From Bacteroidales bacterium (GTDB lineage Bacteria; Bacteroidota; Bacteroidia; Bacteroidales; FEN-979), in NCBI GenBank assembly GCA_028706295.1, contig JAQWBQ010000021.1, positions 1-46,220 of the forward strand: a DNA stretch of 46,220 nt, given 5' to 3'. The notes under the pieces were generated by a model. That model saw only the letters and a list, made by a program, of their open reading frames with translations, was not told where the DNA came from and did not search any database. Position numbers and translations under genes: made by a program. Below, piece after piece: positions 43,642-46,220 of the stretch. Each line of letters begins with the position of its first letter. The stretch's first letter is position 1.

Positions 43642-43709
43642 ATTTCAATTCCGGTTTGGTACAATTGATACGTCGCTATAACATAGCGTATCTCAAAGTC
43701 CGGAGATAA
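43642..43709 (-). repeat. Degenerate terminal CRISPR repeat and trailer spacer
   Basis: 43642-43671 matches the repeat at 25 of 30 positions. It differs at position 1, at 12-13 (AC to GG), at 22 and at 30. The 38-nt spacer that follows contains a perfect CGCTAT-AAC-ATAGCG hairpin (43674-43688). Decay at this end is the usual mark of the leader-distal end. Confidence 0.9.
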
Positions 43710-46038
43710 ATTTCAATTCCACTTTGGTACGATTGATAGAAAACGTGCTCCATGATATCGGTCAACTTCATAAAGGTTTCAATTCCACTTTGGTACGATT
43801 GATAGGATAACTTTGTTTACGCTTGCCATAGGTTAATTTTTGTTTCAATTCCACTTTGGTACGATTGATAGTGCCCGATCAGAATTTGTTGTTATGTAAG
43901 CTGAATAGTTTCAATTCCACTTTGGTACGATTGATAGTCTTTTTCATCTACGCCAATAATTATCTTATATACGTTTCAATTCCACTTTGGTACGATTGAT
44001 AGAATGTCTTTGAGTTGCTTTTTTACGGCCTCTTTCGTGTTTCAATTCCACTTTGGTACGATTGATAGCTGCTACAAAAGAGGATCAGGCCCGTATCGGG
44101 TTGTTTCAATTCCACTTTGGTACGATTGATAGTGAAACGGGCAAAAGTAACAGGATGACCTTTGTGGGTTTCAATTCCACTTTGGTACGATTGATAGATG
44201 ATATGACCTGTACTATTTCAAAGTATCAATCATTTGAACAAGTTTCAATTCCACTTTGGTACGATTGATAGATATTTTTCGACAACCTTATCAACATCCT
44301 TTGTTGTGTTTCAATTCCACTTTGGTACGATTGATAGCGTCCGGGTCAGTGCTACCGATGCACATCGGTTAGCGGTTTCAATTCCACTTTGGTACGATTG
44401 ATAGACTGAACTTGTGATTGTTTTCATGGCTTTGATTGTTGTTTCAATTCCACTTTGGTACGATTGATAGATCCGCGCCGTCGATCACGCCGGCAGTGAC
44501 TTCATGTTTCAATTCCACTTTGGTACGATTGATAGTGACGAGTGATAGCGTTATTGTGCCATCCGATCTCAGTTTCAATTCCACTTTGGTACGATTGATA
44601 GGTTAACCATGCCTGCAAGGGCCTCATATAGGGTAGTGTTTCAATTCCACTTTGGTACGATTGATAGAACGGATAGGACTGTACGGAAAGCCGGAATTTG
44701 TTGTTTCAATTCCACTTTGGTACGATTGATAGTTTCCCTCAAGGTTTTGCTGATAGACGGAATAATTGTTTCAATTCCACTTTGGTACGATTGATAGAAG
44801 GTGTGGTTGATAAGGCCCGGTATGGTTATGTGGTTTCAATTCCACTTTGGTACGATTGATAGTAATTATCGTATGTACCTGAGTGATTATGTCCGATGTT
44901 TCAATTCCACTTTGGTACGATTGATAGATACAGATTCCGATGGGGGCTAAAATCAATGAGCCGGTTTCAATTCCACTTTGGTACGATTGATAGTTCCTGA
45001 TCTCTTCTCCAGGCCATTGGTACGCAAACCTGTTTCAATTCCACTTTGGTACGATTGATAGTCCAGGCTTTCAAAACGGTGTGTAGAACCATTATGTTTC
45101 AATTCCACTTTGGTACGATTGATAGGACAGGCCATATCTTGCTAAAATACAGATTCCGAGTTTCAATTCCACTTTGGTACGATTGATAGCTCCGATCTGT
45201 GAAATTTCTCTGCGGTTAACTCTTGTTTCAATTCCACTTTGGTACGATTGATAGTGCGTTCCTATCAATGTGGATTGTTATCATGATAGTTTCAATTCCA
45301 CTTTGGTACGATTGATAGGTGCGGCAATTTCAATTAACCTGGAATAAACCCAGTTTCAATTCCACTTTGGTACGATTGATAGTTTTGCCAACCGAGCTGC
45401 ACGATCTCAAAACAGCTTGTTTCAATTCCACTTTGGTACGATTGATAGAAAAGCTGGTAGAAGTTGAAGTTCCGGGAACCTGGTTTCAATTCCACTTTGG
45501 TACGATTGATAGACAGTAGTGACTTATAATAGGCTTCACAACTCAAGTTTCAATTCCACTTTGGTACGATTGATAGGCCTTAATCAGCCAGACGTGGGAG
45601 GACTACTTCAAGTTTCAATTCCACTTTGGTACGATTGATAGTATAAACATTCGCCATGACGTAGATAATGATCCGGCGGGTTTCAATTCCACTTTGGTAC
45701 GATTGATAGAACCAAGAAAAATAACGGAAATACTTACTGCCGAGGTTTCAATTCCACTTTGGTACGATTGATAGATGTAGATGTCTTGGAAGATTATTTA
45801 GAGACATACATAGGTTTCAATTCCACTTTGGTACGATTGATAGTCGCTTGCAAACTTTAAACTCAGGGTTGAAAGCCTTGTTTCAATTCCACTTTGGTAC
45901 GATTGATAGAGTCGCCCCATCACCCCGAAACTCTCATAATACGCGTTTCAATTCCACTTTGGTACGATTGATAGAACCGGCAAACATGGCGAACGGTTAT
46001 TATCTGACGTTTCAATTCCACTTTGGTACGATTGATAG
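43642..46038 (-). CRISPR. CRISPR array: 36 near-identical 30-bp repeats, 35 spacers between them, plus a degenerate terminal repeat
   Basis: Full repeats run from 43710 to 46038. As written on the plus strand each begins GTTTCAATTCC and ends TACGATTGATAG. The leftmost (43710-43739) differs in its first base (A for G); the other 35 look identical. A further copy at 43642-43671 has five mismatches and marks the old end. Spacers are 34-39 nt (most 34-36), except one of 44 nt (44198-44241). On the minus strand the repeat ends ATTGAAAC, the standard type I/III 5' handle, and its 30-bp length suits type I-B. No cas genes are visible. Notable spacers: 43806-43841 (SSB-like), 44338-44374 (clamp-like), and the overlapping pair 44928-44963 and 45126-45159. 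The type is inferred from the repeat only. Confidence 0.99.
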
Positions 46039-46220
46039 CCGTTGGCTGAGCAAAAATAAAAAATTGATTATCAGGAGTCAAGAAAAATAATTATTGAAAA
46101 AATCTGGTGAAAATGTCGTCGATATATGATGATATGAAAAACCCCGGTAATCGACACTCTTTAAATTTACTGATGATGAGCGCATTGTGCTGATTCGACT
46201 TAATTGAACTTCATTTTCTC
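46039..46220 (-). promoter_or_regulatory. CRISPR leader with Bacteroidota-type promoter; no gene seen
   Basis: AT-rich and without a convincing coding frame. On the minus strand TTG (46079-46081) and TATTTTTG (46051-46058) are separated by 20 bp, a good -33/-7 pair. The -7 element ends 12 bp before the first repeat, so the pre-crRNA would begin almost at that repeat. An inverted GTCGAT (46118-46123) / ATCGAC (46150-46155) lies further upstream and might be a bending-protein or integrase contact; that is speculation. Confidence 0.8.

Follow-up and report, generated by a model that had tools for sequence, protein, structure and literature searches.

Two spacers of a type I-B CRISPR array in a member of the Bacteroidales share thirteen letters, the end of the one being the start of the other. 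Do they derive from one place in one invader, and does the one then supply the flank, and with it the PAM, of the other? The window, by which we mean the whole stretch of DNA analysed, comprises 46,220 nucleotides (contig JAQWBQ010000021.1 of assembly GCA_028706295.1). The features needed here are:

43642..46038, minus strand: type I-B CRISPR array with 36 repeats, a degenerate copy at the trailer end and 36 spacers; crRNA sense minus
43642..43671, minus strand: degenerate repeat copy at the trailer (old) end
46039..46220, minus strand: leader end of the array, truncated where the contig stops
44928..44963, minus strand: spacer 20, 36 nt, older of the pair
45126..45159, minus strand: spacer 23, 34 nt, newer of the pair
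44928..44940, minus strand: 13-nt overlap, copy in spacer 20
45147..45159, minus strand: 13-nt overlap, copy in spacer 23
44994..45095, minus strand: spacers 21 (44994-45031) and 22 (45062-45095) with the repeat between them, separating the pair
44941..44943, minus strand: TGG on the plus strand, CCA on the minus; putative PAM for the protospacer of spacer 23, taken from spacer 20

The array and its overlapping pair

The array repeat is GTTTCAATTCCACTTTGGTACGATTGATAG; 35 of the 36 copies are identical, and the copy at 43710 starts with A. As expected of type I-B, the repeat is about 30 nt long and ends in minus sense with ATTGAAAC, which at the 3' end of such a repeat we take to be the usual crRNA handle. 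The 36 spacers range from 34 to 44 nt, most being about 34-39 nt; the single outlier is spacer 9 (44198-44241), which at 44 nt exceeds every other spacer of the array by 5 nt. Since a degenerate repeat copy lies at 43642-43671, the left end of the array is the old (trailer) end. The leader is on the right side, at 46039-46220, so that the crRNA sense is minus, as a sequence-only reading of the locus had assumed. This leader is 94% identical (171 of 182 letters) to that of a congener, genome G009, and the repeat consensus is the same in the two arrays. In CRISPR arrays the spacers closer to the leader are the newer ones; spacer 20, lying at the greater distance from it, is therefore older than spacer 23.

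The 13 nt ATACAGATTCCGA form both the end of spacer 23 and the start of spacer 20, and the match is exact, as had been noticed earlier. This is the only such pair among the 36 spacers; the longest of the remaining end overlaps, whatever the orientation, measures 6 nt, and the second-longest word common to any two window spacers is 10 nt. By chance, same-strand end-to-start matches of at least 13 nt are expected 3.5e-5 times, a figure that falls inside the range of 1 in 10^4 to 10^5 first estimated. Frame 1 of the joined 57-mer is open (DRPYLAKIQIPMGAKINEP), a point to which the sequence-only reading had attached no significance, and rightly so: three further frames are also open, and with four of six open the coding frame is uninformative. 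In minus sense the letters preceding spacer 23 are GCCCCCA. The protospacers had been described as 21 nt apart, which is the offset of their plus-strand starts. Because spacers 21 and 22 do lie between the two, the pair is most simply ascribed to separate uptake events, spacer 20 first.

Searches for the invader returned little. With blastn the 57-mer matched nothing among phages up to E 10 and, in 43 genomes of the family, only the window itself (E up to 0.01). The whole array gave weak matches only, with best E values of 0.2 for phages and 0.02 for plasmids; in these array-wide searches there was no match over spacers 20 or 23 alone and no convincing target for the other window spacers. The plasmid match at E 0.02 was rejected as a target, having no annotated gene beneath it and being of the kind expected from the repeats of other arrays. 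When exact 17-26-nt pieces of the 57-mer were sought in IMG/VR, some had 0 matches, and the 6 matches obtained were discarded since their flanks disagree (at most 36 of 57 letters). One search with peptide-degenerate patterns of the 57-mer gave 0 matches, and 4 protein matches to such a pattern show no agreement beyond the motif (9 of 19 residues). Three matches of an 18-mer in a collection of genome contigs are attributed to chance, agreeing at best in 28 of 57 letters. As no target appeared in the phage, viral, bacterial or family genomes searched, we infer, rather than demonstrate, that spacers 20 and 23 would stem from one contiguous 57-nt target. The joined flank predicts that in the invader NGG should stand on the plus strand directly after the 57-mer, as the PAM of spacer 20.

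Flanks read from overlapping spacers

Partially overlapping spacers of one array supply each other's protospacer flanks, and no invader genome is needed. A mass-uptake study of the archaeon Sulfolobus solfataricus, whose system is presumably of type I-A, provides a precedent. There overlapping spacers were built into contigs, with a CCN PAM preceding (published in 2012; PMC3468723, in the text available). For the present analysis an order-wide DNA search gave matches in 77 of 393 genomes; the related arrays are a non-random sample, since they were drawn from among the matches listed. Batch 1, made up of 20 loci of the order, the window and 4 loci of the family, yielded 25 arrays with 1453 spacers. 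Batch 2 was held out, the NGG prediction having been recorded before it was fetched, and its 20 loci yielded 14 usable arrays with 681 spacers; L090 and L097 contributed no spacers, and L101, L106 and L108 no array. The totals are 39 arrays and 2134 spacers with the window, or 38 related arrays and 2098 spacers without it. Locus L105 (37 false spacers, from a failed repeat call) was left out of the final counts and L038 (one repeat) was unused.

Batch 1, window included, contained 14 partial same-array overlaps of 13-30 nt, and the 38 related arrays contain 19. Shuffling the spacer letters gave 0 overlaps in each of 10 runs for batch 1 (window included) and 0 in each of 5 runs for batch 2. Pairs 10/70 and 10/85 of L073 reflect one duplicated spacer, and pairs 55/61 and 55/66 of L094 two variants of one spacer; the final flank tally counts distinct spacer-flank combinations. 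In batch 1 without the window, NGG was found in 6 of 9 downstream flanks, and the three flanks of the held-out batch are TGG, CGG and TGG, that is, NGG in 3 of 3. Pooled over the related arrays, 9 of the 12 flanks on the downstream side have NGG, with the GG at precisely +2,+3, equivalent to CCN 5' in the crRNA sense (background GG, 3.8%); with exact overlaps only, the figure is 4 of 5. The binomial probability of 9 in 12 is 3e-11, a value which assumes independent flanks, yet five of the twelve come from array L072. The three exceptions are AAG and CGC, both in mismatched overlaps, and CAG, in a CAG-rich one. Upstream, GG occurs at -3,-2 in 1 of 24 flanks; elsewhere the count is 5 of 24 each for -4,-3 and -5,-4, and 4 of 24 for -8,-7, some of these coming from duplicated or variant spacers counted twice. 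Cross-array overlaps were examined in batch 1 only, and one of them (L070/L074, outside the twelve) has the flank TTC, against NGG.

The ends of near-identical spacers were also compared. Of 54 such pairs, 22 differ only at the left end, 1 only at the right end and 2 at both, whereas 29 agree at both ends, block duplications of array segments being among these 29. Since the left end varies and the right is mostly fixed, uptake seems to be anchored at the right, PAM-side end. In the available text on S. solfataricus the PAM-side ends are likewise fixed and the far ends variable (PMC3468723). The array L072, which is I-B-like and has 243 spacers, carries an eight-spacer block duplicated in tandem (spacers 67-74 and 75-82, numbered from 0).

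Phage protospacers were sought with eight stretches from 7 of the 39 arrays, two of these arrays in part. The window and G009 (L034) arrays, at E limits of 10 and 5, gave weak matches only, the best E being 0.2 and 5, respectively. Five arrays were searched at an E limit of 0.01, namely L067 (122 of 185 spacers), L081, L073, L079 and, in two parts, L072 (216 of 243 spacers); they produced two phage matches in all, H41 and H42. The former pairs a spacer of L067 with phage LR756500.1 over 34 of 35 letters, with ATA downstream and not NGG. No other phage protospacer turned up for a related array in these searches, and this one counts against the NGG rule; it could represent an escape variant, or a relative of the true source. 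H42 (E 5e-3) was set aside as PAM evidence, falling outside the called spacers and being uninformative on the point.

The PAM rule in the related arrays is NGG downstream on the plus strand, or CCN 5' in the crRNA sense. The window flank after spacer 23, TGG, fits it, and the CC tag of this target was probably used in uptake by the window array. For Bacteroides fragilis, as far as the available text of PMC9367070 extends, a tendency towards G at positions 2 and 3 downstream of I-B protospacers is reported, which the window pair matches, and the repeat, ATTTCAATTCCATAAGGTACAATTAATAC, resembles the window repeat in the same orientation. That PAM was derived from known phage and other mobile-element targets (PMC9367070), whereas the PAM of the window was read from overlapping spacers. 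CC-type PAMs are also listed for I-B systems of other genera in the part of PMC8482600 available. The CC-type PAM proposed in the sequence-only reading is thus upheld by 9 of the 12 related-array flanks and by the B. fragilis I-B logo (PMC9367070); a CC-containing logo, on which the proposal was to depend, emerged in the related arrays, though one phage protospacer of a relative lacks NGG.

Type I-B genes and their effector modules

After the leader, G009 has a cas2-like ORF (L034:4802-5065, identified by eye), cas1, cas4 and a set of I-B effector genes. The cas1 product matches TIGR03641 (cas1_HMARI, type I-B) with E 2e-136, and cas1 and cas4 sit between the leader and an ATPase gene. Upstream of cas4 is a second short ORF (L034:7175-7489) that by eye is like the start of Cas4, perhaps a cas4 remnant. 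A stretch of about 30 nt, at about L034 16660-16755, adjoins a gene in the I-B neighbourhood; in the window genome it has copies on at least eight contigs (C4, C91, C97, C100 and others), and it is perhaps a dispersed repeat element.

Searches with the Cas6 family and with the G009 Cas3 turned up nothing at the locus and suggested that the window genome is without I-B genes, a view overturned by a DNA comparison pointing to contig C88. There the right-hand neighbours of the G009 locus are present at 96% identity and the ATPase gene at 94%. Between them PADLOC detects another I-B effector set, Cas6b, Cas8b, Cas7b, Cas5b and Cas3b. The signature gene, cas8b, is ORF L117:7002-8882 (Cas8b model PDLC01507, E 2.8e-86), which has no NCBIfam or Pfam match; in NCBIfam the Cas6 and Cas3 domains score above their cut-offs, and Cas7 (Csh2) and Cas5 (Cas5h) below theirs. 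The cas3, cas5b, cas7b and cas6 genes expected of type I-B effectors are thus all found on C88 (L117). The stretch expected to hold cas4-cas1-cas2, genes that take up about 2.3 kb in G009, lies in the gap that separates the end of C88 from that of C32. Contig C107 carries the one Cas1 detected in the window assembly, beside a set which by eye resembles type I-C (L014:7126-17343, cas3 to cas2); this set adjoins an array whose repeats translate as THPSRGAT. Since the I-B genes on C88 have the same neighbours as the G009 locus, the window array is most likely not an orphan and would be served by them, a connection that rests on synteny.

A DUF6155 protein is encoded between cas3 and the ATPase gene (L117:13352-14035), and an ORF similar to it by eye lies near cas4 in another genus (L038:377-1237); the protein may belong to this I-B variant. 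The ATPase itself, of the AAA_14/DUF4143 kind, is inside the I-B locus in both genomes (L117:14082-15299 and L034:7512-8729), beside the exchanged module, and that of the window genome matches the PADLOC candidate defence model PDC-S01. The exchanged modules are:

L117:6138-13340 (C88): I-B effector module of the window genome
L034:8901-14659 (G009): I-B effector module of the congener

Between the same neighbours the gene order is cas6-cas8b-cas7-cas5-cas3 in the window genome and cas6-cas5-cas3-cas8b-cas7 in G009. The proteins are scarcely similar, Cas3 being 27% identical over 357 aa (E 1e-11) and Cas6 20% (E 0.008), the others having E values of about 1. Near L034:14815-14952, G009 has a remnant of the start of a window-type Cas6, 53 aligned residues that are 81% identical, followed by a break. 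Because of this remnant we would place the window-type module first and its replacement in G009 later; the comparison suggests that it is the original, and that repeat, leader and neighbours were retained. We lean towards an in-place swap of the I-B module in G009 which left some 50 cas6 codons, the same repeat and a leader and neighbours 94-96% identical, and which would amount to a natural effector-swap experiment. That variants of a single subtype exchange effector modules in situ near cas6 is known (PMC6452270, in the portion available); the window genome and G009 likewise have different I-B effectors flanked by the same genes, and the break lies within cas6. To what that portion describes they add a particular new case, with a cas6 remnant kept, the same repeat consensus and a leader 94% identical. 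The spacers of the G009 array include no overlapping ones.

Origin of the pair and its meaning

Very probably the two spacers were taken at different times from overlapping sites on a single strand of one invader (or of nearly identical ones), the TGG/CCA flank being a CCN PAM. Spacer 20 would have been acquired first and spacers 21 and 22 added next, after which spacer 23 would have come from an overlapping place on the same strand. Joined, they would restore 57 nt of the invader, with spacer 20 supplying the flank of spacer 23; the second uptake would have been a re-encounter or primed uptake. Of this, the overlap and the polarity of the array are established, as is the NGG/CCN rule in related arrays. 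Mere chance, by which unrelated spacers would share 13 nt end to start, is extremely improbable. It might be entertained in that no target turned up in the collections searched and that a 13-mer common to two spacers at any position, on either strand, has an expectation of 0.012, but the end-to-start expectation is 3.5e-5, the PAM fit needs a further 4% coincidence, and shuffled related arrays yield no such overlaps.

Partial overlaps are common, with 20 in 10 of the 39 arrays (2134 spacers, window included). By comparison, the S. solfataricus case is one of experimental mass uptake in an archaeon, and overlaps are called rare in natural Sulfolobus arrays in the available text of PMC3468723. 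Overlapping pairs are somewhat closer together in the array than random ones (mean percentile 0.39 against 0.51, P 0.03, or 0.05 without the window), and 11 are on the same strand and 9 on opposite strands. Repeated sampling of one persistent invader is likely. That spacer 20 guided targeting which led to the uptake of spacer 23 at the same spot would be a sub-case of the preferred explanation, and we hold it only tentatively. Spacer 20 is indeed the older, the leader being on the right, and the closeness of overlapping pairs in related arrays points the same way; the clustering is weak, however, and would also follow from a single phage in a long epidemic, the strands are split 11 to 9, and no further window spacer overlaps the pair by 13 nt or more. 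The earlier suggestion of repeated encounters or priming is plausible, the overlaps in 10 of 39 arrays fitting repeated sampling; priming is inseparable from re-infection. Two different but related invaders, such as variants of a phage or plasmid gene sharing the 13 nt, are unlikely, although this reading overlaps with the preferred one and the odds are not exclusive. Related arrays do contain same-end spacers with 1-3 mismatches (7 of 29 same-end pairs) and partial overlaps with mismatches, as if invader variants had been sampled repeatedly. The window overlap, against this, is free of mismatches, though at 13 nt it is short, and the flank read from the other spacer fits the PAM rule.

With uptake from overlapping sites of one invader, or near-identical ones, as the preferred explanation, the pair is a real pattern and an ordinary one for its kind. 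Given a published I-B logo, CC-type PAMs and spacer contigs with CCN, it is a new instance of known things, and since, for this clade of I-B systems, NGG/CCN agrees with the B. fragilis logo, it adds breadth rather than surprise. PAMs are readable from spacer arrays alone, without the genome of an invader: pooled partial overlaps recover NGG/CCN, and the held-out batch agrees. If both effector modules, that of the window genome and that of G009, use CCN, then the retained adaptation genes, leader and existing memories would keep the PAM constant, and any incoming effector would need to suit it. The in-place swap, with repeat and leader unchanged, would be a compact case in which to ask which of the two modules, adaptation or effector, sets the PAM.
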